Origin: Planctomycetaceae bacterium
GTDB lineage: Bacteria > Planctomycetota > Planctomycetia > Pirellulales > Thermoguttaceae
Assembly: GCA_031259095.1 (NCBI GenBank)
Contig: JAIRLW010000550.1
Coordinates: 1-12,705, forward strand
DNA: 12,705 bases
Reading direction: 5' to 3'
Shown: positions 1-12,705 of the stretch, piece by piece
How positions within the stretch are numbered: position 1 is the first letter of the stretch
Layout of the letters: every line of letters begins with the position of its first letter
The notes under the pieces: generated by a model
The model's database searches: none
What the model saw: the letters and a program-made list of their open reading frames with translations, nothing else
What the model was told of the DNA's origin: nothing
Translations under genes and position numbers: made by a program

Positions 1-203
1 GTGTTGTAACTGTCAACAATTTCATGCGGCAAATCAAATGAAATTGTTTTACGAATTTCAATCGGTGCGCCGCTTCCTTGACCGTGAACTCCTATTAACG
101 CCGATTCGATGCGCCGGCAATGGGATGCCACACTAATTCCCGCAAACCAACGCGGTGAAGTGATTGTATTTTTTCTGGAGCCGCGAAAAGGAAGAAACGA
201 CAT
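1..203 (-). CDS. N-terminal fragment of a minus-strand gene, possibly AnmK-like kinase
   Basis: An open frame of 67 codons runs from an ATG at 201-203 to the window edge without a stop. The protein begins MSFLPFRGSRKN and continues RWFAGISVASHCRRIESALI, then GVHGQGSGAPIEIRKTISFD. The pattern 'WFAGISV...ESALIGVHGQG' resembles the N-terminal strand-turn-strand of anhydro-N-acetylmuramic acid kinases (usual form 'GxxSGTSxDGxDAALVxxxG'). However, the GTS and DG residues of that motif are not preserved here. A weak AGG lies about 7 bases before the ATG. The reading frame and codon use match the neighbouring genes. The CDS call is fairly likely. The family assignment is only a guess and the gene could be another actin-fold kinase or something unrelated. 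Confidence 0.5.
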   Translation of the reverse strand, partial: MSFLPFRGSRKNTITSPRWFAGISVASHCRRIESALIGVHGQGSGAPIEIRKTISFDLPHEIVDSYN

Positions 204-599
204 TGCAAAACCTAAACTGTTAGACTGTTGTTGATCAAAACGGAAAACGAACCGATATTGTAAAGATTATCGATTTTAGAACCCTATGTCTATGCGAATT
301 TTTTTAATTTTTATTCAGGTTTACACAATAAAATGAAATTCGGTTTAATTTGCGGAATTTACAAGTTTTGGGCAATTTTAGCGAATCGTTTTTTCCAAAC
401 GCTCATTCCAGTGAGCTACTTCTCACAGTTAAAAGCAACCTTTTAAACATTCGTTTTTAATCACCGAATTATTTGTCCCAATTTGTCGCCAATGTCCCTT
501 CTGTCCCTAACATTGCGCTTAAGAGACAATAGGGACAAAGGGAACAAATGATTGTTAAATTAAATTTGTATCTCGGAAAAAAGTATTGTGAGAGATTCC
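204..599. other. AT-rich intergenic region holding a repeat copy
   Basis: This stretch separates the divergently placed start of the partial gene (left, minus strand) from the 3' end of hybB (right, minus strand). It should therefore hold the promoter of the partial gene and the end of the hydrogenase transcript. I see no credible coding frame. The only clear structure is the GTCCC-type inverted repeat at 471-552. That repeat could also act as a 3' hairpin for the hydrogenase transcript, although no T-tract follows it. Confidence 0.6.
471..552. repeat. GTCCC-type hairpin repeat, copy 1
   Basis: The left arm has GTCCC-like units spaced about 9-10 bases apart (ATTTGTCCCA, ATTTGTCGCC, AATGTCCCTT, CTGTCCCTAA). 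After a short centre the right arm carries the complement (AGAGACAATAGGGACAAAGG, then GAACAAATGAT). The arms pair imperfectly over about 28 bases with a one-base bulge. The same design recurs at 9516-9627 and 11065-11140. The left flank of this copy (ATTCGTTTTTAATCAC at about 450-465) is nearly identical to the left flank of the third copy, so the repeat unit extends beyond the hairpin. Confidence 0.75.
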
Positions 600-1865
600 C
601 TACTCTTTTTCCTTCACTAAGATATTGAAGTTTTCGCACAAAAACAGATAGATCAGCAGCACGGTTGAGACCAAACCGAAACTGATAATCACTTCACACA
701 ATGTCGGACAATAAATCACTCCGGCATCACGAGTCATTCCCGTAATCACCACATTCATTCGGTTGGCAAACACGCCAGCACTCGTAAGAAAACCGTAAGT
801 AATTATCCAACCGCGATAGTTGATCAATGGAGAAAAAACAATCAGAATCGGTATCACCACGCCAAATAAATGTTCCGCAATAAACGCAACACTCTCAAAA
901 CTGCCATCAAAAAGCAATCCCGTTTCGTTGTGAACCACAAGATCGCCGATTTTCAACGCTAAATAAAGTATCATAATGCCGCCGCCGATTCGCGCCAGTA
1001 ATTTCAGCGCATCAATGGATGTTTTATGTCCGAAGGCAAAACCAACCAACACCGATTCCATTACCAACATTGCCGGTCCTACAAAAAGTGACGATAAAAA
1101 GAAAAACAAAAAAATCAACGGACTCCACCAAAGCGGATGCAAACGTCCGTCCGTCATCAGATAAATTGCCCCAAGCGACGATTGGTGTAACGTGGGCAGC
1201 ATCACTCCGATAACCGCAAAGACAGGAAAAAAACGTACAAAAAACCAGTGAACCCGACGAAAAACCTTTTCGGTAACTATTTCGCCCAATTCCAAAACTT
1301 GAATAATAAAATACAAAGAAACACACCAGAATACTTCAAACAACGCCGATTCATGTCCCCACGAAACATAAGGACGCCAGAAATTAAACCAACGTCCAAT
1401 CTCCGTAAAAAGACCAACAAGCATCAGTGTGTAACCAAGAAGCGAAATTAATAAGGTTCGGTGTGAAATTATTTTTAAACGTTCAATATGTAATATGTGA
1501 ACGAGAAATGTTGTCCCATAACCGCCGCCCGCTAACGCCGCTCCAGCAAATACCGCCCAACCCTTCCAAAGTCCCCAAGGCCAATGATCGTTGAGATTGG
1601 CAACAGATTGCAAGCCAAACGCAAAACGGTACAGCATAATCGCCGCCGTCAATAACGATAACAGAATCAGAAAAAAACGTATCGGCGTAATTCGGAATGA
1701 CCAGTGATCATAAGAAATACGAATAAACCACTTCTTAAATTCAAGATTAAAATCCATTGGAAAACAATTGGGTTGGAGTTGTTCTAATGTTAAAGTAATT
1801 CCGGTAGGATTCAAAATTCCTAATATTACCGCAGTATTTGTGTAACCTGCGCTTATCAGCATCAT
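600..1865 (-). CDS. hybB: HybB/NrfD-family membrane subunit of a hydrogenase complex
   Basis: Integral membrane subunit, about 421 residues, with around ten hydrophobic spans. In hydrogenase-2, HybB passes electrons between the periplasmic iron-sulfur subunit and the quinone pool. Family landmarks as I recall them from E. coli HybB are present: FGLQSVANLND (residues 83-93) followed by PWGLW, the glycine patch LAGGGYG (111-117), and LPTLHQSSLG (223-232, E. coli LPTMHQSSMG). Length is close to the family norm. The start is uncertain. The ATG at 1865 (an ATGATG pair) gives a 36-residue extension that I cannot match to the family, and the ATG at 1757 (MDFNLEFKKW) is an alternative. Neither has a Shine-Dalgarno sequence. 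From 1865 the gap to the stop of the HybA-like gene is only 12 bases, so translational coupling is likely. It is the last gene of the hydrogenase block. Confidence 0.9.
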   Translation of the reverse strand: MMLISAGYTNTAVILGILNPTGITLTLEQLQPNCFPMDFNLEFKKWFIRISYDHWSFRITPIRFFLILLSLLTAAIMLYRFAFGLQSVANLNDHWPWGLWKGWAVFAGAALAGGGYGTTFLVHILHIERLKIISHRTLLISLLGYTLMLVGLFTEIGRWFNFWRPYVSWGHESALFEVFWCVSLYFIIQVLELGEIVTEKVFRRVHWFFVRFFPVFAVIGVMLPTLHQSSLGAIYLMTDGRLHPLWWSPLIFLFFFLSSLFVGPAMLVMESVLVGFAFGHKTSIDALKLLARIGGGIMILYLALKIGDLVVHNETGLLFDGSFESVAFIAEHLFGVVIPILIVFSPLINYRGWIITYGFLTSAGVFANRMNVVITGMTRDAGVIYCPTLCEVIISFGLVSTVLLIYLFLCENFNILVKEKE

Positions 1866-1877
1866 CTGCGGATAAAT

Positions 1878-2798
1878 TTATTCTGTTGTTTCGGATGTTT
1901 TGGAATCTTTGTTTTCGGCAACTTGGGTTTTGACGTGTTCTTTTCGTTTCGTAAAAAAATAAAGCCCCGTCAAAATCAATGCCCAAACCGCACCGAAAAT
2001 CGGCGTCGAGTGCATATAGGTTGACGTGTATGAAGGAATCGGCTTTTTGGGAACATCCATCTTGAAACCAAGTTGTTCAAACGGTGTATCCGAAACATAA
2101 ATCCAAGAAGTTCCGCCGGCTTCTTCTTCTCCATAAATATGTTGAACATACCGGTTGTCTTTATTAACCAATTCCTTCGCTTCCGCTAACAAACTGTCAC
2201 GGTCTCCGAATTTCATTACATTCGTCGGACATACCGACACACAAGCCGGTTGTTGACCTTTCGCGATACGATTACTACACATCACACATTTCGTAATCAC
2301 TGGAATTGTTTTATTCCATTCAAATTTCGGAATCTTGAACGGACACGCCAACATACAGTAACGGCAACCAACACAATTATTAGGATAATAAATTACCGGT
2401 CCCGCTTCCGTTTTCTGAAACGCTTTGGCAAAACAAGAAGACACACAACCCGGCTCTTTACAATGCATACATTGCCGTTTTACAAACCGCCATACCTCGC
2501 CGTTAGTACGGTCTGTTTTATTTGATTTATTTGATTTATTTGATTCGTTGTGCTTATCTGAAACATTGTTTTTATCTGAAACGTTTAATTCGTTCACGCC
2601 GGCGTCCATTCCGGCAACCGTTCGCGGTACACGGAATTTTTGAATCACCGTCCAGTTTTCGTCCGCTAATTCGGCATCTTCACCGTTGGTCGCGGCACGT
2701 TCATTAATCCATTGATTGCCGTTGTACATCTTGCACGCCACCGTACAACTACCGCAACCAATACATTTCGTAAGATTAACCAATACTCCTCGTAACAT
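1878..2798 (-). CDS. hybA: HybA-like four-cluster ferredoxin subunit with C-terminal membrane anchor
   Basis: Electron-transfer subunit of 306 residues predicted to wire the hydrogenase to the HybB-like membrane protein. Sixteen cysteines form four [4Fe-4S] sites: C12/15/18/22, C110/113/118/122, C142/145/148/152 and C171/174/186/190. Downstream, 'HIYGEEEAGGT' followed by a 'TPFEQLGF' segment matches the HybA signature. One transmembrane helix lies at about 266-282, followed by TKRKEHVK. By the positive-inside rule this puts the cluster domain in the periplasm. There is no Tat or Sec signal, unlike E. coli HybA, so it may be exported as a passenger of Tat-bearing HydA, as FdnH is with FdnG. 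The start is the ATG at 2796-2798, set by a strong GAGGAGG at 2804-2810. An upstream in-frame ATG at 2825 would add nine residues but has no ribosome site. Residues about 70-99 are an S/N/D/K-rich insert between the first and second cysteine groups. Confidence 0.92.
   Translation of the reverse strand: MLRGVLVNLTKCIGCGSCTVACKMYNGNQWINERAATNGEDAELADENWTVIQKFRVPRTVAGMDAGVNELNVSDKNNVSDKHNESNKSNKSNKTDRTNGEVWRFVKRQCMHCKEPGCVSSCFAKAFQKTEAGPVIYYPNNCVGCRYCMLACPFKIPKFEWNKTIPVITKCVMCSNRIAKGQQPACVSVCPTNVMKFGDRDSLLAEAKELVNKDNRYVQHIYGEEEAGGTSWIYVSDTPFEQLGFKMDVPKKPIPSYTSTYMHSTPIFGAVWALILTGLYFFTKRKEHVKTQVAENKDSKTSETTE
2517..2547. repeat. 9-bp tandem repeat inside hybA
   Basis: About three copies of TTTGATTTA in tandem, in frame with the gene. 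On the coding strand they give the peptide SNKSNKSNK. They form the core of a low-complexity, lysine/asparagine-rich insertion (SDKNNVSDKHNESNK and so on) between the first and second Fe-S cysteine groups. The 9-bp period keeps the frame, so copy number could vary without breaking the protein. Confidence 0.8.
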
Positions 2799-2803
2799 GA
2801 TAA

Positions 2804-2810
2804 CCTCCTC
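2804..2810 (-). promoter_or_regulatory. Shine-Dalgarno that fixes the hybA start
   Basis: GAGGAGG lies 5 bases before the ATG at 2796-2798 on the minus strand. It selects this start over the in-frame ATG at 2825. Confidence 0.85.
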
Positions 2811-2906
2811 AAAGATACGTTGCATTTTGAAATTGCCGTTTTCTTCTACGAAATCGCGTCAATTTCATAATCCCGTTAAAAAATAAAAAATGCTTTTTGT
2901 GTAAAA

Positions 2907-3317
2907 TTATTGTTTCGGATCAATGCCGAATAAATCAACAAGCCGTAGTTTATCAATCCGTTCAAAGTGTTTACGATTTAATGTTGCTAACGGTAAATTG
3001 TTGGTAATCGCTGTTGCCGCTATCAAAATATCGGGAAGTCCAATCAAACAACCGCTCTGTTTTAACTGACGATAAATCTGACAAGCAGCATCGACAATCG
3101 TACAGTCAAATGCTAATACTTCAATGCCATCAAGAATCCTTTTCCAATACTCCAGCTGTTCATCACTCGCCCCACATAAAATTTCATATTTCACAATCGT
3201 TGAAATAAGAATTTCATCATAAATCAATGACAAACGGCAAAACCATGTATTATCTTTGTTTCTGGATCGGAAATGATCAATAAACAAGCTGGAATCGTAT
3301 GTTATTCTATTCGCCAT
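2907..3317 (-). CDS. vapC: PIN-domain toxin (VapC-like ribonuclease)
   Basis: A 136-residue PIN-domain protein, the size of type II VapC toxins, which are Mg2+-dependent endoribonucleases cleaving tRNA or rRNA. The acidic site is present: D8 in 'YDSSLFID' (family form LDTNVLID), E45 in 'VKYEIL', and D96 in 'GLPDILIAATAI'. The fourth position is N114 in 'LATLNRKHF', where D or N is normal. The ATG at 3315-3317 has a good AGGAG about 8 bases upstream, lying inside the end of the antitoxin gene. The two genes overlap by 16 bases, the usual coupled arrangement of toxin-antitoxin pairs. The pair sits on the same strand between hydA and hybA, which is unusual. Target RNA cannot be told from sequence. 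Confidence 0.88.
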   Translation of the reverse strand: MANRITYDSSLFIDHFRSRNKDNTWFCRLSLIYDEILISTIVKYEILCGASDEQLEYWKRILDGIEVLAFDCTIVDAACQIYRQLKQSGCLIGLPDILIAATAITNNLPLATLNRKHFERIDKLRLVDLFGIDPKQ

Positions 3318-3655
3318 TTCTGTAACTCCTGTCTAATTTCGTCTTGTCTGTTAATCGTTTCTTCATCGGCAACAGGACATTGTAATAATAATTCGAGAAA
3401 TTTTTCCCGCGACATCTTAGGTTTATGTTTCCGTTTTTCTTTTATTTCGTCCATAAGTTTTTCACCGTTTAACCGGAATCGTTCCATATCCTCTTCGGAA
3501 AATTCTAGTGATTTTGTTGTTGTTCTTTCCGATTTAGCGGGTTCTTCCTTCACCGGAAGTATAATAATTTCTACTTCACGGTTCTGTAATTCGACGGGAA
3601 GATCAATAATTGCGGTAAGCCGTTCTGAATTAACAATAGTTCTTAAAGTATCCAT
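3302..3655 (-). CDS. Antitoxin of the VapBC-like pair
   Basis: A 117-residue protein immediately upstream of the PIN toxin, with its 3' end overlapping the toxin start by 16 bases. The N-terminus (MDTLRTIVNSERL, then IIDLPVELQNREVEIIILPV) has the strand pattern of short antitoxins whose N-terminal part dimerises and binds DNA. The remainder is charged and helical (about residues 45-117), as expected for the part that wraps and blocks the toxin. It is somewhat longer than typical VapB proteins (70-90 residues). No Shine-Dalgarno is visible before the ATG. Three direct repeats at 3680-3714, just upstream, are a candidate autoregulatory operator. The antitoxin role rests mostly on position next to a PIN toxin plus the N-terminal pattern. 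Confidence 0.8.
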   Translation of the reverse strand: MDTLRTIVNSERLTAIIDLPVELQNREVEIIILPVKEEPAKSERTTTKSLEFSEEDMERFRLNGEKLMDEIKEKRKHKPKMSREKFLELLLQCPVADEETINRQDEIRQELQKWRIE

Positions 3656-3679
3656 AATAAAAGTTACGGTTCAGGTATG

Positions 3680-3714
3680 ATTAAATGATAGTTGAATGAT
3701 AGATTAAATGATAT
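3680..3714 (-). repeat. Three direct iterons upstream of the antitoxin gene
   Basis: On the minus strand the sequence reads TATCATTTAATC, TATCATTCAAC, TATCATTTAATC in unbroken tandem (12, 11 and 12 bases), ending 25 bases before the antitoxin ATG. Toxin-antitoxin operons are commonly autorepressed at repeats in this position, so this is a candidate operator. That role is inference. Confidence 0.65.
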
Positions 3715-3813
3715 TTTTCTTTATCGTTAAAGGAAACCATTTTAATGAAAATGATTGTCAATAACGTCCAACAACCGCTTGCGAACTATCCACTATTCAC
3801 TACTAATTACCAA

Positions 3814-5361
3814 CTATTCACTAATTTTTTGCTTCTTTGTCAGGTGCATACTATAGTTTTCGTAATGGGTATGTAAAAGGGCATGGGCGATACCTTCGTT
3901 TGGTGTTCCGAGATAATCTTTATAAACGGTTTTAATTTCGGGGTTTTCGTGACAAAGCCGAACCGTAGCGCGTTCATCGACATTGTAAAGTGCGTTGATT
4001 CGTGCGGAGCGTACTTCATCGGAAGGCGGTAACGCGGTTCTTGGTTGTCCTCCGCCGCTGATGCAACCTCCGGGGCAAGCCATAAATTCGATAAAATGCC
4101 AATTTCCGGTACCGTTTTGAACACGTTCCAACACTTTATGCGTATTGCCCATACCGGCAACAACTGCCACGCGTACTTCACCGTGATTGGGAATTTCCAA
4201 AGTTGCTTCTTTCATTCCGGCGAGACCGCGAACGGGTTGGAGATTGAAGAGGAGAGCCGGAGGTTTTTCACCGGTAATCTGGGCGTAAGCGGTTCGAACT
4301 GCCGCTTCCATCACTCCGCCGGTCACTCCGAAAATCGCACCTGCGCCGGAATATTCACTTAAAAGATTGTCGTAATGAACCGGTTCCAGTTTTAACAGGT
4401 CAAGTCCGCGTAATTTAATGAGGTTTGCCAATTCGCGGGTGGTGATCACCAGGTCGGTGTCTCTAATACTAGGATCACCGAGTTTCAAACCGGAATGATT
4501 CATTTCCGGTCGTCCTGCTTCAAATTTTTTAGCGGTGCAAGGCATAACGGCAACAGAATAAATCTTTTTCGGATCAATACCGCGTTTTTCGGCATAATAA
4601 GTTTTAATCATTGCGCCAAGCATGGACATTGGCGATTTTGCCGACGATAAATTGGGCAACAAATCAGGGTAAAAATATTCGCAATACCGTACCCAACCCG
4701 GACAACATGAGGTAAACTGTGGAATTGGGGCGTTTAATTTACCGGTCAACCGTTGTACCAATTCGGTGGCTTCTTCCATGATGGTGAGATCAGCGGAAAA
4801 ATTGGTATCTAAAACGGTATTAAAACCGAGTGATTTGAGAGCGGCGACTTGCCGTCCTTCGACATTGGTTCCTGCCGGCAACCCGAATTCTTCGCCCAAT
4901 GCCACACGAGTTGACGGCGCGGTTTGCGCGACCACATGACGATTGGGATCGTCCAATGCTTCTACCAATGCGGTAAGACCGTCGGTTTCCGTGATTGCTC
5001 CGGTCGGACACCACAAAGTACATTGACCGCAACCGATACAGGGAATATTATCGATCAGTGGAAGTTCATAATTGTACATGACCGTTTCCACTTTGGAGCA
5101 AACTTCCGCACATTGACCGCACAAAATACATTTACGGTCATCGCGGGTAATCGATAAATTATTCGGGTCAATAGGGATACGTCCGCGAACTTGAGGCGGG
5201 AAGTTCCCATTCCCTTCATACTGGCTGGGCATCCAACCTTCACCGCCGGAAGGGTTCCCGCTACAACCGATGGTACTTGCCACCAATCCGGTTCCCGCCA
5301 TTTTGATAAATGATCTGCGGGACACATCAATATTAGGTTCATGCTTATTTTCCGGTTCCAT
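3814..5361 (-). CDS. hydA: Tat-exported single-chain [FeFe] hydrogenase
   Basis: Catalytic [FeFe] hydrogenase, 515 residues, interconverting H2 with protons and electrons. A twin-arginine signal opens the protein (S14-R-R-S-F-I-K20, then a hydrophobic stretch). 'TIGC' at 30-33 could be a lipobox placing a lipid on C33, though T at -3 is not ideal. Two ferredoxin clusters follow (C78/81/84/88 and C108/111/114/118). The H-cluster motifs are complete: TSCCPGW (217-223, with proton-relay C219), MPCTAKKFE (273-281, C275) and MACPGGCISGGGQP (427-440, C429 and C433). The last 70 or so residues resemble the small-subunit domain, which is a separate Tat-bearing protein in Desulfovibrio but is fused here. 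The ATG is fixed by GGAGGG at 5367-5372. It heads the block containing HybA- and HybB-like genes. The HydE, HydF and HydG maturation genes are not in the window. Confidence 0.95.
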   Translation of the reverse strand: MEPENKHEPNIDVSRRSFIKMAGTGLVASTIGCSGNPSGGEGWMPSQYEGNGNFPPQVRGRIPIDPNNLSITRDDRKCILCGQCAEVCSKVETVMYNYELPLIDNIPCIGCGQCTLWCPTGAITETDGLTALVEALDDPNRHVVAQTAPSTRVALGEEFGLPAGTNVEGRQVAALKSLGFNTVLDTNFSADLTIMEEATELVQRLTGKLNAPIPQFTSCCPGWVRYCEYFYPDLLPNLSSAKSPMSMLGAMIKTYYAEKRGIDPKKIYSVAVMPCTAKKFEAGRPEMNHSGLKLGDPSIRDTDLVITTRELANLIKLRGLDLLKLEPVHYDNLLSEYSGAGAIFGVTGGVMEAAVRTAYAQITGEKPPALLFNLQPVRGLAGMKEATLEIPNHGEVRVAVVAGMGNTHKVLERVQNGTGNWHFIEFMACPGGCISGGGQPRTALPPSDEVRSARINALYNVDERATVRLCHENPEIKTVYKDYLGTPNEGIAHALLHTHYENYSMHLTKKQKISE

Positions 5362-5366
5362 TTTAA

Positions 5367-5372
5367 CCCTCC
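5367..5372 (-). promoter_or_regulatory. Shine-Dalgarno that fixes the hydA start
   Basis: GGAGGG lies 5 bases before the hydA ATG on the minus strand. It is one of three strong ribosome sites in the window, all within the hydrogenase/toxin block. Confidence 0.85.
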
Positions 5373-5416
5373 AAGCAAATTTTATTTTAAATAATTGAAC
5401 TTGTTATCTTTTGCTT

Positions 5417-5444
5417 ATTTTATACCGCTTTTGATAACTGTCTA
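5417..5444 (-). promoter_or_regulatory. Candidate hydA promoter
   Basis: On the minus strand TAGACA (5439-5444) is followed, after 16 bases, by TAAAAT (5417-5422). These resemble sigma-70 -35 and -10 boxes placed to give a leader of about 50 bases before hydA. This is assigned by pattern only. Confidence 0.4.
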
Positions 5445-5466
5445 GGGACAAAATCGAAAATAAATA

Positions 5467-5486
5467 AAAATTTATTGATAAATTTT
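5467..5486. promoter_or_regulatory. Perfect AT palindrome upstream of the hydA promoter
   Basis: AAAATTTAT-TG-ATAAATTTT has perfect 9-base arms around two bases. It lies about 22 bases upstream of the candidate -35 box on the minus strand, a position suited to an activator or repressor. It does not fit the FNR consensus. The AT-only stem without GC makes a terminator unlikely. Confidence 0.4.
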
Positions 5487-5627
5487 GTTTTTTTTATGTT
5501 CTTTACAAGATAACCGTCAAAATGGATAAAATACACAAGATATAGACAGATGCTCTGTATTACTATTTCCTGCTCCTGAAATCGTGAAAAAATTCCTGTA
5601 TCTATTCCGCTATTTATCTTAAAGGGA

Positions 5628-5805
5628 AGTTGGCGATCCCTTCAGCGAAGGGTCGCGCCGGTAGAGTATGTCATTGATACCAACCGGCAATGCCTCTCAT
5701 AAAGATTCTGTTATTAAATTTAATACGCAGTAGGAGGGGCAAACATTCTGGTTGTCGAGTAAACATAACCGGCGCGACCTTTTGGCACAAGGTCGCCCAC
5801 CACCT
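5628..5805. repeat. Inverted-repeat element, GTCGCC family, long copy
   Basis: The two ends are imperfect inverted repeats of about 35 bases. The inner 13 bases (AGGTCGCGCCGGT against its complement, one mismatch) match best, and the outer parts read GTTGGCGATCC and GTGGGCGACC. Each arm can also fold alone: GCGATCCCTTC-AGC-GAAGGGTCGC on the left and GCGACCTT-TTGGCAC-AAGGTCGC on the right. About 105 unrelated bases lie between the arms. The right arm (5781-5816) matches 12488-12522 closely. No coding frame and no clear target-site duplication were seen. Confidence 0.7.
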
Positions 5806-6062
5806 GAGTTTTGACATACCCCCAAAAAATTCAAGTCATATTTTTAAACTCATTACCTGCACAGCATGAGATTATTCTCTTTGCAACTCTTTTGCTGATT
5901 ATAACGATGAAATTTTTGCTGAAATTTCAACGGAACCGGAAAATTTAACGTAGTTTCTCTTATCATAACCTATGGTATGTCAGTAAACGCGCGCAAAATG
6001 TCATGCGAAATGATCTTATCGGTAACAATCTAAGACAATAAACAATGATTATTAATTGACCA

Positions 6063-8153
6063 ATGACCATTTGTCCGACCAATCGAGTTCTGATTTGGAA
6101 CCTGCTCTTGGCAGGTTTTGGATTGTTCTGCGCGGTTGGTTGTCAATCATTACCGCGAAGCGGTTTTGATCCGAAGGGTGAACGATTGTTTGAATCCTGT
6201 CCGTTGGAAGGGCTTTTACCGTCGAATTGTGATTTATTTGGTCGTCGGAAAGAGCCGCAAACATCAACGACTCCCTTGACCGCAACACCGATTCCTCCGC
6301 TGGTCGATCATTCCGGCGCAACCGTTTTTCCCGGAACAGCATCCGTAACACCAAATCAATTACCCGGTCAATTCGGTGCGGCGCAATTGGGAACGGTTGT
6401 TAGTCCAGCCGGAATACCGCAGTACGGTTCCACCGCAACCGCTATAACTCCAGCCGCTCGCGGAATCAATACGGCAATTATTGCTTCACCGGAGGCGACG
6501 CCTAAACCGGTTTTTGAAGAAACCGGCGGCTATGCGTTACCGACCGTTCCCATTGAAGGTCCGGCAATTTTGATGACTCCGCGTGAACAAATTGCGCCGG
6601 TTGGCAGTGAAGTTGTTTTGATTTCCAGTTATCTTGGCAGCAAGGATCATTTAATAACGAACGAAAAAATCGAATGGACACTCGAAGGTGTTGGAGCGAT
6701 TCAGAAATTCGACGGCGGTTCTATTTGCGATCCGTTACATTTTGATTATGTCCGCGCAAGAAAAATCACCGACCGTTATGTTGTGACGAAAACAAGCCGG
6801 CTTTATCAAACTCTTGATCGCGGAACACCTGAAACAAAAGACGATATTCATCTTCTCAAAGGTCAAACCTGGATTTCCGTTAATTCGATGCGTGAAGGAA
6901 CAACTCATGTAACAACATTTGCTCCGTCGCTGAAAGATTGGTCGAAACGAAGTGATGTTGGAATTATTCATTGGGTTGATGCTCAATGGTTTTTGCCGCG
7001 TCTTTCGATTGCTCCGGTCGGCGACAGCCGGATTTTGACCACAACGGTGTTACGACAAACAAACGGTCAACCGCGAAACGGATGGATTGTCCGTTACGAG
7101 ATTTTGAACGGTCCGTCTGCCGGATTAGGACAATCTTCGGCACAGATTGAAGAAAAAGAAACGGATATGTCCGGTCAGGCGTCGGTGATTCTTTCGCAAC
7201 GGGAAAGCCGCGCCGGAACCAATACAATTTCCGTACAAATTATTCGTCCGGCGGGAGTGGACGGTTCTGATCGCCGTGTTACGGTTGGCAGTGAAACGAT
7301 TCGGCAAACTTGGTCGGGCAACGCCGGTATTCGCATTGCGTTAACCGGTCCAGGTTCAGAAAAAGTGATTAAACGCGGCGATGATATTCCGTACACCATT
7401 ACATTGACAAACACAACATCGCTTATTGGAAGAGGCGCGGTGGTGTTTGAAGTTCCGCCGTTGGCGACCTTTATCGGCAGTCAACCGACTCCGGCGCGAA
7501 CAGAAAATTCATCGGTACTTTGGACTGTCGAGGTTCCGCCCAAAGCAACCGCAACAATTCAATGTACGCTTCGTGCTGGAACCGTTGGAAGTATTTATCC
7601 TGTTGCAACATTTTATCCTCAAGGCATTTCACCGGAAACACGATTGCCGATTACCGGAACATCCGTTCCGTTACCGTCTGCCGATTCTTCCGCTGTTACG
7701 CCAACCTTATCCGGCGCCGCTCAACCGTCGTCCGGCGGCGCAACAGTTTTTCGCCGTGACACTCCAACCGGTGTGATTTTGAAAATTGAACCGAGAATCG
7801 AACCGGATAAAGATAAAGTTGTCGCGGTTGGAAAACCGTTGGAGTTTTCTTTTATTGTTGAAAATAAGAGTTCGTCGGAAATCAGAAATGCGCAATTACG
7901 AATTGAGGTTCCGCCGGAAATCCGACATTTAGTATCAAAAGGCGCCGCCTCCCCTTCAGCAGATGGTACAGCATACCATAGTCTCCAGCATGATTATGTG
8001 TACATTGATGTTGCGTCTATTCCGGTCGAAGGAATCGCCTATGTCAGTACCGAATTCCCTAACCTCAGCCCTCAAGGTTATCAAATTGTCGGAACACTTT
8101 TTGTCAATAATCAACAATTTGACCAAATCACAAAACTGATCAAACCAAAGTAA
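6063..8153 (+). CDS. DUF11-repeat envelope lipoprotein
   Basis: A 696-residue predicted exported lipoprotein. An N-terminal signal (NRVLIWNLLLAGFGLFC) ends in AVGC with C27 as the probable lipidated residue. Next comes 'LPRSGFDPKGERLFESC', a segment I associate with planctomycete DUF11 lipoproteins. A proline/threonine-rich linker covers about 60-165. Ig-like beta domains follow at roughly 170-300 and 312-415. A DUF11 domain lies at about 422-516 (GIRIALTGPGSEKVIKRGDD, then IPYTITLTNTT) and a second, more divergent one at about 570-696 (KIEPRIEPDKDKVVAVGKPL). DUF11 domains are beta-sandwich modules of cell-surface proteins, so a structural or adhesive envelope role is likely but not shown. 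The ATG follows an in-frame TGA (6057-6059), which fixes the start; there is no Shine-Dalgarno. It ends convergent with gspF, about 100 bases away. Confidence 0.88.
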   Translation: MTICPTNRVLIWNLLLAGFGLFCAVGCQSLPRSGFDPKGERLFESCPLEGLLPSNCDLFGRRKEPQTSTTPLTATPIPPLVDHSGATVFPGTASVTPNQLPGQFGAAQLGTVVSPAGIPQYGSTATAITPAARGINTAIIASPEATPKPVFEETGGYALPTVPIEGPAILMTPREQIAPVGSEVVLISSYLGSKDHLITNEKIEWTLEGVGAIQKFDGGSICDPLHFDYVRARKITDRYVVTKTSRLYQTLDRGTPETKDDIHLLKGQTWISVNSMREGTTHVTTFAPSLKDWSKRSDVGIIHWVDAQWFLPRLSIAPVGDSRILTTTVLRQTNGQPRNGWIVRYEILNGPSAGLGQSSAQIEEKETDMSGQASVILSQRESRAGTNTISVQIIRPAGVDGSDRRVTVGSETIRQTWSGNAGIRIALTGPGSEKVIKRGDDIPYTITLTNTTSLIGRGAVVFEVPPLATFIGSQPTPARTENSSVLWTVEVPPKATATIQCTLRAGTVGSIYPVATFYPQGISPETRLPITGTSVPLPSADSSAVTPTLSGAAQPSSGGATVFRRDTPTGVILKIEPRIEPDKDKVVAVGKPLEFSFIVENKSSSEIRNAQLRIEVPPEIRHLVSKGAASPSADGTAYHSLQHDYVYIDVASIPVEGIAYVSTEFPNLSPQGYQIVGTLFVNNQQFDQITKLIKPK

Positions 8154-8176
8154 GGCAACTCGCAAAAATAAGTCGC

Positions 8177-8192
8177 GTCGGCGGTAGCCGAC
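8177..8192. terminator. Possible terminator hairpin after the DUF11 gene
   Basis: GTCGGC-GGTA-GCCGAC is a perfect 6-bp GC-rich stem, 23 bases after the stop, followed after a short spacer by five T residues (8200-8204). The T-tract is a little far from the stem, so termination on the plus strand is plausible rather than certain. Confidence 0.4.
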
Positions 8193-8219
8193 TTGTGCAT
8201 TTTTCACTCTCCACTATTT

Positions 8220-8256
8220 AAGATAGGCGATGTTTCGCCGAAACATTGCTTACCTT
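8220..8256. repeat. Hairpin overlapping the gspF stop codon
   Basis: Arms of 16 bases (AAGATAGGCGATGTTT and AAACATTGCTTACCTT) pair around CGCCG with 13 Watson-Crick pairs, two G-U wobbles on the plus-strand transcript and one mismatch. The GGCGATGTTTCGCCGA core resembles GGCGATATTTCGCCGA after recA (about 12450). The stem runs into the gspF stop codon at 8255-8257. It may serve the ends of both convergent transcripts. Confidence 0.6.
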
Positions 8257-9469
8257 ATCCGGCAAGCGTGGTCATATTGATAATTGGGAGCAGCATGGAA
8301 ACAATAATATAAAAAACCGCTCCCGCCATGATTAGTAACATTAATGGTTCAATTAAACGGATAATCGTGTCTAATTGCCGAGCGGTATTTCGTTCGATGG
8401 TGTCGGCGATGTTCACCAGCACATTTTCCAACGTGTTCGATTCTTCCGCCACCGTAATCATCGCCATCACCTGCGGAGGAACAATACCGGAATCCGTTAA
8501 CGGTTTCGAAAGCGGTTCACCGCTGGAAACATTTTCCGCAGAACGTTTGACCGCATCAGCCAAAACCGTGTTGCCGGTCGATTGACTGCTAATGTCCAAC
8601 GAACGAAGAATCGGAACTCCATTTTCTAAAAGCGTTCCAAGTACACGACAAAAACGTGAAACCGCACTGTTCAATAAAATCGGTCCCAATAACGGTAATC
8701 GGAGTTTTACGCGGTCCATGATTCGAATTCCCCATTGAGTCGAGAGTTGTCCCTGAATCCAAACCCCAAGAAAAAACATCGCCCCAACAAAATAAATCCC
8801 ATAACCAAGAAGAATGTTACGCATCCAAAGTAAGGATTGAGTTGTCCAAGGCAATGGGTTTCCGGCGTCAACCATCTGATTAAAAAACGGCATAAACTGA
8901 GGAACAAAGAAAATCAAAAGTGTTACCACCACCGATATTCCAACAAAAAACAATATCGAAGGATAAATCATCGCACTAATAATTTTTCCTTTCAGTTCCG
9001 CCTGCTGTTCCAAGAATTTCGATGTACGACGCAACGCATCTTCCAAAAACGCTCCTTCCGCTCCGGCACGAATAATACTAATCGTTAAATCATTGAAAAT
9101 ATTCGGATGAGATGCAAAAGCGTTGTCAATCGCTTCACCGTCGGCAATTTGATCGTGAATATCCGTCAAAACCTCACGGAATAACGGATGAGTTGTCTGT
9201 TTGATGAGAACCTGAAACGCCGCTAATACCGGTACGCCATTCTCCAATAAATCAGCAAGTTGCCCAAGTATGGCGGCAACCTGTGAATCCGCAACGCGAC
9301 GATTAAACAACTTAATCGTAATCTGTCCGCGTCGGGCGTCGTCCACGCTAATAGGAAAAAGCGATAGTCGATGCAATGTCTCCAACGCTTCCCGTTTAGA
9401 ATTGGCGCTCAACTTGCCCGTAACGTCGTTGCCTGTAACCGTTTTGGCAGTATAAACATAATCAGCCAT
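8255..9469 (-). CDS. gspF: GspF/PilC-family inner-membrane protein
   Basis: Inner-membrane platform protein of type II secretion or type IV pilus assembly, 404 residues, the usual length. It starts MADYVYTAKTVTGNDVTGKL, the typical GspF/PilC opening. It has two homologous T2SF domains, at about 65-190 and 270-395, each carrying an 'LLENGVPVLAAF' or 'LLENGVPILRSL' motif. The hydrophobic spans follow each domain (about 165-190, 215-240 and 372-396). It ends IVSMLLPIINMTTLAG, close to the family's canonical end. The gene stands alone, with no gspE, gspG or pilin gene in the window. Secretion versus pilus use cannot be decided. The start at 9469 lacks a strong Shine-Dalgarno (only GAG about 12 bases upstream) but fits the family N-terminus exactly. 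Confidence 0.93.
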   Translation of the reverse strand: MADYVYTAKTVTGNDVTGKLSANSKREALETLHRLSLFPISVDDARRGQITIKLFNRRVADSQVAAILGQLADLLENGVPVLAAFQVLIKQTTHPLFREVLTDIHDQIADGEAIDNAFASHPNIFNDLTISIIRAGAEGAFLEDALRRTSKFLEQQAELKGKIISAMIYPSILFFVGISVVVTLLIFFVPQFMPFFNQMVDAGNPLPWTTQSLLWMRNILLGYGIYFVGAMFFLGVWIQGQLSTQWGIRIMDRVKLRLPLLGPILLNSAVSRFCRVLGTLLENGVPILRSLDISSQSTGNTVLADAVKRSAENVSSGEPLSKPLTDSGIVPPQVMAMITVAEESNTLENVLVNIADTIERNTARQLDTIIRLIEPLMLLIMAGAVFYIIVSMLLPIINMTTLAG

Positions 9470-9515
9470 CGCTTCACTCTCAGTGTTTGGGGAAATTTCA
9501 AAAAAACTTTTCCTA

Positions 9516-9627
9516 AATTATTCGTCCCATTGTTCCTATTGTCCCTTATGTCCCTAAAATATTTCGTAGAGGGACAATTGGGACAAGTGAGACAAATTGG
9601 GACAAGTAGGATAAATTGGGCAAATTT
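9516..9627. repeat. GTCCC-type hairpin repeat, copy 2
   Basis: The left arm has 9-bp periodic units (CGTCCCATTG, TTCCTATTG, TCCCTTATG, TCCCTAAAA). The right arm carries complementary units from about 9569 (GAGGGACAATTGGGACAAGT, GAGACAAATTGGGACAAGT, AGGATAAATTGGGCAAATTT). The right arm is longer than the left, suggesting gain or loss of single units. It lies between the two divergent genes. Confidence 0.75.
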
Positions 9628-9673
9628 TCTAAATTAAGAATAATATACCGTCAACACAAAACCGGACAATTCC

Positions 9674-9705
9674 TATTGCGGAAAATTGATATTGCGGAAA
9701 ATTGA
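9674..9705. repeat. Two-copy 16-bp tandem repeat
   Basis: TATTGCGGAAAATTGA occurs twice, back to back and identical (9674-9689, 9690-9705). It sits directly before the 13-bp array. Confidence 0.85.
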
Positions 9706-9710
9706 AATTT

Positions 9711-9775
9711 TTCGCATAATTCTTTCGCATAATTCTTTTGCATAATTTTTTTGCATAATTTTTTTGCATAATCCG
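9711..9775. repeat. Five-copy 13-bp tandem array
   Basis: Units are TTCGCATAATTCT, TTCGCATAATTCT, TTTGCATAATTTT, TTTGCATAATTTT and TTTGCATAATCCG, contiguous and in register. The core GCATAAT is unchanged in all five. It ends 78 bases before the permease start, where promoter or operator sequence would be expected. Confidence 0.9.
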
Positions 9776-9853
9776 TTGTTTTTCCCTCCGGTACGCAACG
9801 CCTTCCGAGAAGAATATCGGCATGTTGACTGTTTTTACGCCCTTGAAAATAAA

Positions 9854-10990
9854 ATGACCATTTTAGATCGTTATCTTTTGAAGAGTTTTTTTTTCAATCT
9901 GATTTTCTGGTTTATTTGTATTATTGGGATTTTTATTGTATTTGATCTTTTTACTCATCTGGACAGTTTGGTTCAAAAAGGAAAAGAGCAAAACAATGTT
10001 TTTCGACTTATAGGGACTTACTATCTTTTCCAATCGATTCCGATTGCGATGACACTCAGTTCGATTCTTGGACTTGTTTCGGCAATGATTGCGATGGCAA
10101 TGATGATTCGCAATAACGAATTGGTTCCGATTCAGGCGGCAGGAATTTCAACACTGAGAATTATTCGACCATTGATTATTGGAGTGATTTTTGTCGCGGT
10201 CGTTTCAACCATTCTCCGAGAAACAGTGTTGCCGCATTTTCTTGACGAATTGGTAATGGAAGCGGAAGATATCGCTAAAGATCGCGGTGTTCGGCTGAAT
10301 GCCATGATTGACAATGAAACCGGAATTAGTATTTTGGGCGATCAGATTTTTCGAAAAGAGTTGAGAATCGGCAATCCGGTTTTTGTCATTCCGAAACCGA
10401 TTGCCAAACAGTTGACTCGTCTCAAGGCAAAAGACGCTTTTTACCATTCGGCGAAAAATAAAAAACCGGCAGGTTTTATGTTGGTTGGTTTTGCAGAAAT
10501 TCCGGCGATTCTCAATGGTGATTCTTTGACTTTTAATGGACAACCAATTGTGATAACACATCAGGATGAACCTGATTGGGTTAAGGCGGATAGTTGTTTT
10601 GTGGTGAGTCAGGTTCCGTTTGATTATCTGGCGTCCAATGATGCGTGGCGGCAATACGCTTCAACATGGGAACTGTTTAAAGCCGCACGGAATAACAGTC
10701 TTGACGTGGGCAATCGGATTCACGCAATAATTCACTGCCGTATTTTGCAACCTTTTCTTGATATAACTCTTCTTTTTTTGGGTTTGCCAGCGATTCTGGC
10801 GAGTGGAGATCGCAATGTGTTCAAGGCGATGGGAATTAGCGGACTGGTCATTCTTGCCTTTCTGGTGATTCAGAAATCATGTCAATATCTCGGCGCAAAC
10901 GGAAATATGCCTGTTCTTGGCGCATGGTTACCGCTCATGATTTTCGTCCCGTTTGCCGTGAACCAAATTATGATGCTCAAAACAAAATAA
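9854..10990 (+). CDS. LptF/LptG-family (YjgP/YjgQ) lipopolysaccharide export permease
   Basis: Inner-membrane permease of 378 residues that, with a partner and the LptB ATPase, lifts lipopolysaccharide out of the inner membrane. It starts MTILDRYLLKSFFFNL, the classic family opening, with a first span at about 11-33. Two more spans lie at about 56-85 and 100-122, around 'ELVPIQAAGISTLRIIRPL', the coupling-helix region of the family. A periplasmic domain covers about 123-285 and three spans end the protein (about 295-378). The ATG at 9854 is preferred over an in-frame ATG at 9764, whose extra 30 residues derive from repeat sequence. No Shine-Dalgarno is visible. LptF and LptG cannot be told apart here and no second permease gene is adjacent. 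The next gene is recA, 336 bases downstream. Confidence 0.9.
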   Translation: MTILDRYLLKSFFFNLIFWFICIIGIFIVFDLFTHLDSLVQKGKEQNNVFRLIGTYYLFQSIPIAMTLSSILGLVSAMIAMAMMIRNNELVPIQAAGISTLRIIRPLIIGVIFVAVVSTILRETVLPHFLDELVMEAEDIAKDRGVRLNAMIDNETGISILGDQIFRKELRIGNPVFVIPKPIAKQLTRLKAKDAFYHSAKNKKPAGFMLVGFAEIPAILNGDSLTFNGQPIVITHQDEPDWVKADSCFVVSQVPFDYLASNDAWRQYASTWELFKAARNNSLDVGNRIHAIIHCRILQPFLDITLLFLGLPAILASGDRNVFKAMGISGLVILAFLVIQKSCQYLGANGNMPVLGAWLPLMIFVPFAVNQIMMLKTK

Positions 10991-11064
10991 AAAACATCGC
11001 CCGCCTCTGGACATAAACAATGGGAAACCTCTAAAAATTCATTTTTAATCACAACGTTTAATTT

Positions 11065-11140
11065 AAAAATCATTTGTCCCTAACGTCTCTATCGTCCCTC
11101 AAGTCCTTTTTTAGAGAGACCTTAGGGACAAATGATTTTT
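11065..11140. repeat. GTCCC-type hairpin repeat, copy 3 (near-perfect stem)
   Basis: The left arm 11065-11090 begins AAAAATCATTTGTCCCTAA and the right arm is 11115-11140. They pair over 26 bases with a single mismatch around a 24-base loop that itself carries further GTCCC units. Outside the stem, AATGGGAA (about 11019) and TTCCCAATG (about 11146) extend the symmetry. ATTCATTTTTAATCAC in the left flank matches the flank of copy 1. It is the most regular of the three copies. Confidence 0.85.
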
Positions 11141-11241
11141 AAAGATTCCCAATGATCTCTCCAAAATGTAAAATAATCAGCGAATTTTTTATTGAAAAAC
11201 GGTTAAAAGATAATCTACCGTATTTTTATAACGACGAAGTT

Positions 11242-11250
11242 TGTTATAAT
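11242..11250 (+). promoter_or_regulatory. Candidate extended -10 promoter of recA
   Basis: TGTTATAAT is a consensus extended -10 element (TG-n-TATAAT) that would give a leader of about 70 bases before the recA ATG. The -35 region is poor, as is common for extended -10 promoters. Confidence 0.55.
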
Positions 11251-11326
11251 GAGGCAGGTTTCCTTATTTGTTTAACAGTAACTTTTACTAACAATTTTAC
11301 TTAATACTTAACCAACATTAAATTCC

Positions 11327-12418
11327 ATGCCTAAAAAAACTGTTGAAAAAACGAAATCCGCTCATACGAAAGCGGAAAAGGTCAATAAGATTGACCAGGT
11401 TTATTCGAAGAATCCTGAATTGAAAAACACCGTAACGCAAATCGAAAAAATATTTGGCGAAGGCACGATTATGCCGTTACAACTTGATCAATCGCCTAGT
11501 CTTTCCGGTATTTCAACCGGTAGTCTTTCGCTGGACATTGCTTTAGGTGGTTTTGGCGTACCGCGCGGCAGAATCATTGAAATTTTCGGTCCCGAGTCAA
11601 GCGGTAAAACAACGTTAACCTTACACATTGTTGCTCAGGCACAAAAGGAAGACGGAATTGCCGCATTTATCGATGCGGAACACGCACTGGATCCAAGTTG
11701 GGCGAAACGTCTTGGCGTTGATCTTGAAAGTCTGCTTGTTTCGCAACCGGGTAGTGGTGAAGAGGCAATGCAGATCACGGAAATGCTTGTCAAATCCAAT
11801 GCGGTTGATATTATTGTTGTTGATTCGGTTGCGGCGTTGGTTCCTGAAAAGGAACTTAAAGGCGAAATGGGCGACACCCATGTTGGACTTCAGGCTCGTT
11901 TGATGAGTCAGGCTCTTCGAAAACTGACAGGTATCGTTGCTAAAAGTAAAACGTGTATTATTTTTATCAATCAGATTCGTGAAAAAATCGGTGTTATGTT
12001 TGGCAATCCTGAAACAACACCGGGCGGACGTGCGTTGAAGTTCTACTGTTCTTGCCGAATTGATGTGCGGCGTGTCGGACAAATCAAGGAAGGCGAGACG
12101 GTGATTGGTCAACGGGTCAAGGCGAAAGTGGTGAAAAACAAAGTGGCTCCGCCGTTTCGGGCTGCGGAGTTCGACATGATGCACAACAACGGAATCAGTT
12201 ACGAGGGCGATATTCTTGATCTTGCCATCAAACAAAAAATTGTTGTCAAATCCGGTGCGTGGTTCCGTTACGGGGAACAACAACTTGGTCAAGGACGTGA
12301 AAAGACCAAACAGTATTTAAAAGAAAACCCCGATTTCACCGAACAACTCAAAACGGAAATCCTCACTGAAATTCAAGAAAACGGTGCGGATTTGTTCTCC
12401 GACAGCGCTGAAGAATAG
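11327..12418 (+). CDS. recA: Recombinase RecA
   Basis: ATP-dependent strand-exchange protein of homologous recombination and activator of LexA-type cleavage, 363 residues, normal length. Walker A is GPESSGKTT (88-96) and Walker B '[12 protein letters not shown]' lies near 165-176. The '[20 protein letters not shown]' followed by 'GGRALKFY' region (loop L2) is intact. The C-terminal domain ends in an acidic tail ([13 protein letters not shown]) typical of RecA. The first 30 residues form a lysine-rich extension ([18 protein letters not shown]). The start at 11327 has no Shine-Dalgarno but gives a full-length family protein. It appears to be transcribed alone, from the extended -10 promoter upstream, and is followed by a hairpin region. 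Confidence 0.98.
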
Positions 12419-12444
12419 AGGAAGAACAGAAAACCGTTCAAAAA

Positions 12445-12522
12445 AGGTGGGCGATATTTCGCCGACGCAACTAAGGGTGAAAAACCCTTTGGCAAAAGGT
12501 CGCCTACCACCTGATATTGACC
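12445..12522. repeat. Inverted-repeat element, GTCGCC family, short copy
   Basis: The ends AGGTGG (12445-12450) and CCACCT (12507-12512) are complementary, and inside them GGCGA pairs with TCGCC. Smaller stems lie within (GGCGA-TATT-TCGCC and AAGGGT-GAAAA-ACCCTT). The right part, 12488-12522, matches 5781-5816 at about 31 of 35 positions (TTTGGCA..AAGGTCGCC.ACC). It starts 26 bases after the recA stop, so it could also act at the recA transcript end, but there is no T-tract. Confidence 0.7.
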
Positions 12523-12625
12523 AAACAGTTCTCTCAATTTCGAAATAATCAGAGAAATTAATTAATTGATTCATTAGTTACTAAACTCAAAACACGAATT
12601 CCACTGAAATCTTACTCAAATTGTT

Positions 12626-12705
12626 ATGTCCTCAGTTAAAAGTGAAGTAACTTTAAAAGTTCAGGTTGCGAATAAATATTTTAATAAATTTACCGTTTCG
12701 TTTGA
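12626..12705 (+). CDS. Possible start of a downstream gene (truncated by window end)
   Basis: An ATG opens a frame of 26 codons that is still open at the window edge (MSSVKSEVTLKVQVANKYFN, then KFTVSF). The upstream 100 bases are AT-rich and non-coding. No Shine-Dalgarno is seen, as with recA and the permease gene. It is too short to assign a family and the frame could be chance. Confidence 0.35.
   Translation, partial: MSSVKSEVTLKVQVANKYFNKFTVSF

Follow-up and report, generated by a model that had tools for sequence, protein, structure and literature searches.

On the minus strand of a 12,705-nucleotide stretch from a Planctomycetaceae bacterium (assembly GCA_031259095.1, contig JAIRLW010000550.1, positions 1 to 12,705; hereafter the window), hydA, a hybA-like gene and a hybB-like gene very probably encode an [FeFe] H2:(mena)quinone oxidoreductase that is exported by the twin-arginine translocation (Tat) system and anchored at the outer face of the cytoplasmic membrane. 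A periplasm-facing, membrane-bound enzyme of this type had been proposed in a preliminary description of the window, and it is favoured by the Tat and lipobox-like motifs of HydA, the tail of HybA and the NrfD fold and charge pattern of HybB, and further by gene order in distant bacteria, by the maturases HydE and HydF and by the lack of a [NiFe] large subunit match in four metagenome-assembled genomes (MAGs). The parts themselves, the HydA signal motifs, the HybA tail, the HybB fold family, the conserved order of the genes, HydE/HydF and a cytochrome b558-type succinate dehydrogenase/fumarate reductase (Sdh/Frd) are read from sequence; from these we infer complex formation, the electron path, the quinone identity, the side of proton uptake and the direction of the reaction.

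The source MAG (G000; 3.84 Mb in 653 contigs, 78% complete, 5.1% contaminated), in which the window is contig C229, was compared with three related planctomycete MAGs (G146, G147 and G148), the nearest named relatives of the window being Planctomycetaceae MAGs. Genome-wide family checks covered these four and five Bacillota owners of the trio, including G149, G150 and the partial genome G151. Nine window proteins were scanned against Pfam and NCBIfam, and 120 HydA and 125 HybB relatives were compared among the matches listed. The features of the locus are as follows.

3814..5361, minus strand: hydA, [FeFe] hydrogenase group A catalytic subunit, 515 amino acids (motifs, Pfam, NCBIfam, structure match)
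5263..5361, minus strand: N-terminal part of HydA with twin-arginine motif and lipobox-like TIGC (read from sequence)
3302..3655, minus strand: VapB-like antitoxin candidate, 117 amino acids (position, overlap with vapC; 78% identical protein at the equivalent place in related locus L009)
2907..3317, minus strand: VapC-type PIN-domain toxin candidate, 136 amino acids (PF01850; L009 copy 54% identical)
1878..2798, minus strand: hybA-like gene, 306 amino acids, four 4-Cys sets; longest open reading frame (ORF) from 2825 (family scores, cysteines, ribosome site)
1950..2006, minus strand: C-terminal tail anchor of HybA, TPIFGAVWALILTGLYFFT, then KRK (hydrophobic stretch)
600..1757, minus strand: hybB-like gene, NrfD-family 10-helix membrane subunit, 385 amino acids; longest ORF 600-1865 (NCBIfam, alignment)
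1170..1199, minus strand: LPTLHQSSLG motif of HybB, with equivalents of E. coli HybB His184, Ser186 and Ser187 (alignment)

The catalytic subunit is complete, as had been claimed: the 515-residue ORF contains the motifs TSCCPGW, MPCTAKKFE and MACPGGC, reaches 483 bits with TIGR02512, the model for group A [FeFe] hydrogenases (cut-off 406), and carries the Pfam domains PF02906 and PF02256. Its layout comprises two [4Fe-4S] ferredoxin-type motifs, the H-cluster domain and a fused C-terminal small-subunit domain. The N-terminus (SRRSFIKMAGTGLVASTIGC) holds RRSFIK, with the twin arginine at residues 15-16, and a lipobox-like TIGC ending at Cys33, both being pattern readings of the sequence rather than output of a signal-peptide predictor. 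By the same kind of pattern matching, the RR pattern was present in 111 of the 120 listed relatives and RR together with a lipobox-like motif in 110. Seven relatives (P0078, named Pelosinus, P0084, P0088, P0103, P0107, P0109 and P0119) have TRLNFLK or TRLSFLK in place of RR, and six of these seven keep the lipobox-like motif, raising the question of whether Tat still serves them. The best solved chain was that of the bifurcating HydA1 (8a6t_A, 421.8 bits), and the closest periplasmic one was that of the Desulfovibrio [FeFe] hydrogenase (8ryh_A, 420.9 bits). The Desulfovibrio enzyme is soluble; planctomycete HydA differs from it in having the small-subunit domain fused and membrane partners encoded alongside.

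The 16 cysteines of HybA (residues 12, 15, 18, 22; 110, 113, 118, 122; 142, 145, 148, 152; 171, 174, 186, 190) form four 4-Cys sets, predicted to bind four [4Fe-4S] clusters, and a single hydrophobic stretch (residues 265-283) is followed by KRK, in agreement with the cysteine count and C-terminal anchor described earlier. The gene likely starts at 2798 and not at 2825, because GAGGAGG and five bases precede the ATG there. Against NCBIfam models, HybA scored higher as HmcB (266.6 bits) than as E. coli HybA (196.6 bits), and HybB higher as E. coli HybB (208.6 bits) than as HmcC (174.6 bits), all under the curated cut-offs; the label "HybA/HybB-type" thus holds at the level of the superfamily but not as a statement of closer kinship. 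The nearest solved chain to HybA was the beta subunit of formate dehydrogenase-N (1kqf_B). Alignment showed no signal peptide on HybA, whereas E. coli HybA has a Tat signal; a signal-bearing partner would therefore be needed, and hitchhiking on HydA is expected, in the manner that PMC10924467 describes for formate dehydrogenase. Between cluster sets one and two lies a low-complexity Asn/Ser/Lys spacer (window positions of about 2500-2590), which no aligned row other than those of the window and L009 contains.

HybB fits an NrfD-type membrane protein in fold and charge pattern, and its LPTLHQSSLG motif and the ORFs of the trio lie on one strand where they had been described. Its start is likely at 1757, because in L009 the corresponding ATG (8096) opens the ORF, even if the tblastn match extends further up; no clear ribosome site was seen upstream of 1757. 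At the 25 quinone-site and ion-path positions listed in Table 2 of PMC8076601, HybB is identical to the E. coli protein at 13 (Ser95, Tyr99, Ser129, Glu133, Tyr141, Glu148, Glu155, His184, Ser186, Ser187, His200, Glu291 and Arg329).

Several observations make a standard menaquinone-reducing enzyme less secure. HybB differs from E. coli at the other 12 positions, including Asp58 to Ala in the quinone site (Asp in 97 of the 125 listed relatives) and Arg89 to His in the proton path (shared with four of the 125, the other 121 having Arg). The MqnA/MqnD family was found in G147 but not in G000, G146 or G148, and in all five Bacillota owners (weakly in G151), while MenB over cut-off was found in none of the nine genomes. 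UbiA-family proteins number one each in G000, G146 and G148 and two in G147; the G000 protein is over cut-off for TIGR01475 and scores 197 bits, under cut-off, with an MqnP model. The loss of Asp58 and Arg89, with MqnA, MqnD and MenB not found in the window genome or G146, is the ground for a quite improbable reading in which the module has drifted from the standard menaquinone redox loop in this planctomycete lineage; electrons might then reach a different or scavenged quinone or another protein, with altered energy conservation or none.

In the oxidoreductase reading, HydA would be matured in the cytoplasm by HydEFG and then bind HybA, and the pair would be exported via Tat on the HydA signal. 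The C-terminal tail would hold HybA at the membrane, and the probable anchor of HydA is a lipid, or else a signal helix that stays uncleaved. Electrons from H2 would pass from the H-cluster through the two [4Fe-4S] clusters of HydA and the four of HybA to a quinone bound by HybB close to the periplasm. The protons for this quinone would come through HybB from the cytoplasm, and in this way the oxidation of H2 would conserve energy. In this organism, the most likely role of the complex would be that of an uptake hydrogenase that supplies fumarate reductase. G000 encodes on contig C363 a b558-type cytochrome and an Sdh/Frd flavoprotein over cut-off, and G146 has a cytochrome/flavoprotein pair followed by a gene for a hydrogenase-like/chemotaxis fusion and then the Fe-S subunit, among neighbours that, judged by eye, encode fumarase, malate dehydrogenase and phosphoenolpyruvate carboxykinase. 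With these Sdh/Frd genes present, a route from H2 via quinone to fumarate is coherent, but the quinone itself is not secured.

The same genes might run in the opposite direction, with quinol-driven H2 release outside the cell at the expense of the proton motive force, which would dispose of reductant in fermentation. We consider this unlikely. [FeFe] enzymes are reversible, and the genome holds other [FeFe] hydrogenases (A6-like on contig C254, group B on C485). For hydrogenase-2, the available part of PMC6303296 describes H2 production dependent on proton motive force during fermentative growth on glycerol. However, the b558-type Sdh/Frd of the MAG and the setting of the Fe-S subunit in G146 fit H2-driven fumarate reduction. 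Making H2 from menaquinol is also uphill by about 0.3 V.

HydF was over cut-off in all four planctomycete MAGs and HydE in G000 and G146; of the expected hydEFG set, HydG over cut-off was the part not found in G000 (78% complete), nor in G148, while G146 (482 bits) and G147 have it. The partial Bacillota genome G151 yielded neither HydG nor HydF over cut-off. A hydrogenase left non-functional by H-cluster maturation that is incomplete without HydG is very improbable, given HydE and HydF over cut-off in G000, the incompleteness of this MAG and the presence of HydG in sister genome G146, whose HydA is 95% identical.

The chance that the genome holds an undetected [NiFe] hydrogenase-2 outside this locus, with HybA and HybB serving it instead, is smaller still. 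These subunits are known from E. coli hydrogenase-2 (locus L123), and the Bacillota trio owners G149 and G150 also hold [NiFe] large subunits, with strong PF00374 matches. Yet PF00374 was unmatched in G000, G146, G147 and G148 while control genomes such as E. coli were positive (the small subunit was not searched for), no [NiFe] family was matched among the nine window proteins scanned, and HybA lacks the E. coli-type Tat signal. The scan of the window agrees with the earlier statement that no [NiFe] subunit gene lies there, and no large subunit that could pair with hybA and hybB was found elsewhere in the genome.

The preliminary description had the trio right but overlooked a VapBC pair at 2907-3655, apart from the hybA and hybB starts that are now moved to 2798 and 1757. 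The two genes overlap at their ends and separate hydA from hybA, so the order of hybA and hybB matches that of the known module but not "immediately" downstream of hydA. VapC matched PF01850 (3.6e-15, over cut-off) and NF047959 (2e-17, under cut-off); the VapB-like candidate has no Pfam or NCBIfam match, and an antitoxin role is suggested by its position and overlap. The pair occupies the equivalent place in L009 (6152-6900), i.e. in two related genomes. In sliding windows of 60 alignment columns, identity between the window and L009 was 81-98% on both flanks and 47-70% over about columns 481-840, a stretch that takes in the end of vapB and, from its start, roughly two thirds of vapC; this looks like a toxin-antitoxin (specificity) core exchanged by recombination.

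Such an insertion may have broken the operon, leaving HybAB to serve another periplasmic donor or to decay, a possibility to which we give a slender chance. VapBC does stand between hydA and hybA in both the window and L009, and HybB shows the changes Asp58Ala and Arg89His when compared with E. coli. However, the open frames are well kept against L009 (amino-acid identity of HydA 95%, HybA 87% and HybB 90%; DNA identity 90%, 92% and 93%, respectively), all genes lie on one strand, the sole terminator-like site between hydA and hybA is inside vapB, and terminator-like sites in the scanned stretch are fewer than in shuffles (3 vs 7.5). At least nine HydA/HybB pairs among the relatives listed, six of them named Planctomycetaceae, come with longest contigs of equal length (a match made by eye), suggesting that the genes are linked in those genomes as well. 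Downstream, AT-rich short near-repeats (GTGAATAGT..., ATCATTTAATC) follow hydA at window positions 3700-3825 and are partly missing in L009.

The preliminary description had proposed to seek hydA near hybA and hybB in other genomes, and 80 HydA loci retained from genome contigs bear on this. The order hydA-hybA-hybB was present at six: L009 (Planctomycetaceae), L012 (Desulforudis), L013 (Negativicutes), L014 (Gracilibacteraceae), and L015 and L016 (Anaerovibrio). Planctomycete loci L010 and L011 stop inside or shortly after hydA, and at the other 72, some on short contigs, no HybA/HybB match was found. Within the class of the Desulforudis genome, HydA was found at E <= 1e-150 in 51 of 113 genomes at 65 places, all of which were examined. 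Both partners lie downstream at 49 of these (partial or split in L169 and L185), HybA alone at nine by script (three at contig ends; L204 has a HybB-like ORF further on) and neither at seven (one at a contig end). HydA-HybA pairs with no recognised HybB within the next 2.5 kb occur at L202, L206, L208 and L209, where another membrane partner may serve. In Anaerovibrio, hydE, hydG and hydF (all over cut-off) directly precede the trio at L016, where tatC lies on the opposite strand some 4.3 kb ahead of hydA, and hydG and hydF occupy the equivalent place at L015.

The arrangement, left open as to novelty in the preliminary description, is already described. Judged by sequence, the planctomycete trio is not a member of hydrogenase-2 but the three-protein Fe-Fe hydrogenase module that Gallego-Parrilla et al. 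2024 (PMC10924467, Fig. 4) draw for Desulfotruncus, Desulforamulus and Proteus, consisting, in the available part of that paper, of a Tat-lipoprotein group A Fe-Fe hydrogenase, a signal-less iron-sulfur protein with a C-tail and a HybB-like quinol oxidase. All three components, the Tat signal and lipobox of HydA, the signal-less Fe-S protein with its tail anchor and the gene order are shared; the planctomycete version differs in phylum, VapBC insertion, unusual HybB residues and the low-complexity HybA spacer. As far as the accessible portions of the Desulfotomaculum genome papers of 2012-2014 go, D. nigrificans has two copies of a membrane-associated [FeFe] hydrogenase with a Tat motif and a 10-helix membrane subunit (PMC4149029), D. 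ruminis two such Tat-bearing enzymes, with an uncleaved signal helix rather than lipid as predicted anchor (PMC3569383), and D. gibsoniae one (PMC4148979). We found hydA-hybA-hybB at L161/L162, L157/L160 and L179, which we assign to these species, respectively. They share the Tat motif on the catalytic subunit and the trio order; their HydA is 59-61% identical to the planctomycete protein and they lack the toxin-antitoxin insertion.

E. coli hydrogenase-2 (HybOABC) resembles the trio in its HybA/HybB-like electron path to quinone, including the 13 of 25 listed HybB residues, but has the [NiFe] pair HybO/HybC in place of HydA and a Tat signal on HybA itself. Hmc (HmcB/HmcC) gave the top NCBIfam score for the Fe-S subunit and the second for the membrane subunit, both under cut-off; its partner is a 16-haem cytochrome (PMC6303296, available part), here replaced by a hydrogenase. 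Since the module is drawn in PMC10924467 and listed in the Desulfotomaculum papers, as far as their available parts show, the planctomycete is a new owner and not a new machine; our literature search found no published account of a planctomycete owner. A module of exported [FeFe] hydrogenase and Hyd-2/Hmc-like membrane partners, known in the accessible literature from genome predictions, is thereby extended to Planctomycetota. Cultured owners (Anaerovibrio, Desulfotomaculum relatives) would allow energy conservation by an [FeFe] hydrogenase via an NrfD-type subunit to be tested.

H2-driven fumarate respiration would become a candidate trait of a gut planctomycete. An insect gut is the probable habitat: isolate names of the type Pcl387_bin141 resemble those of termite-gut MAG series, but nothing in the available part of the termite study PMC9137090 ties these MAGs to it.

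The remaining window genes scanned (encoding a DUF11 protein, GspF-like and LptF/G-like proteins and RecA) have no evident connection to the trio. An [FeFe]-hydrogenase-like domain fused to a methyl-accepting chemotaxis signalling domain (615-619 amino acids) is encoded at L092:251-2098 (minus strand) and L236:5679-7538 (plus strand); in G146 the fusion gene stands between frdA and frdB, and its product is a possible H2 sensor. In the window's genome, L090:128-4915 (plus strand) encodes in a row a PAS-bearing, hydrogenase-like (HydS-like) protein, a phosphatase of SpoIIE type and a monomeric [FeFe] hydrogenase that is over cut-off for group B.
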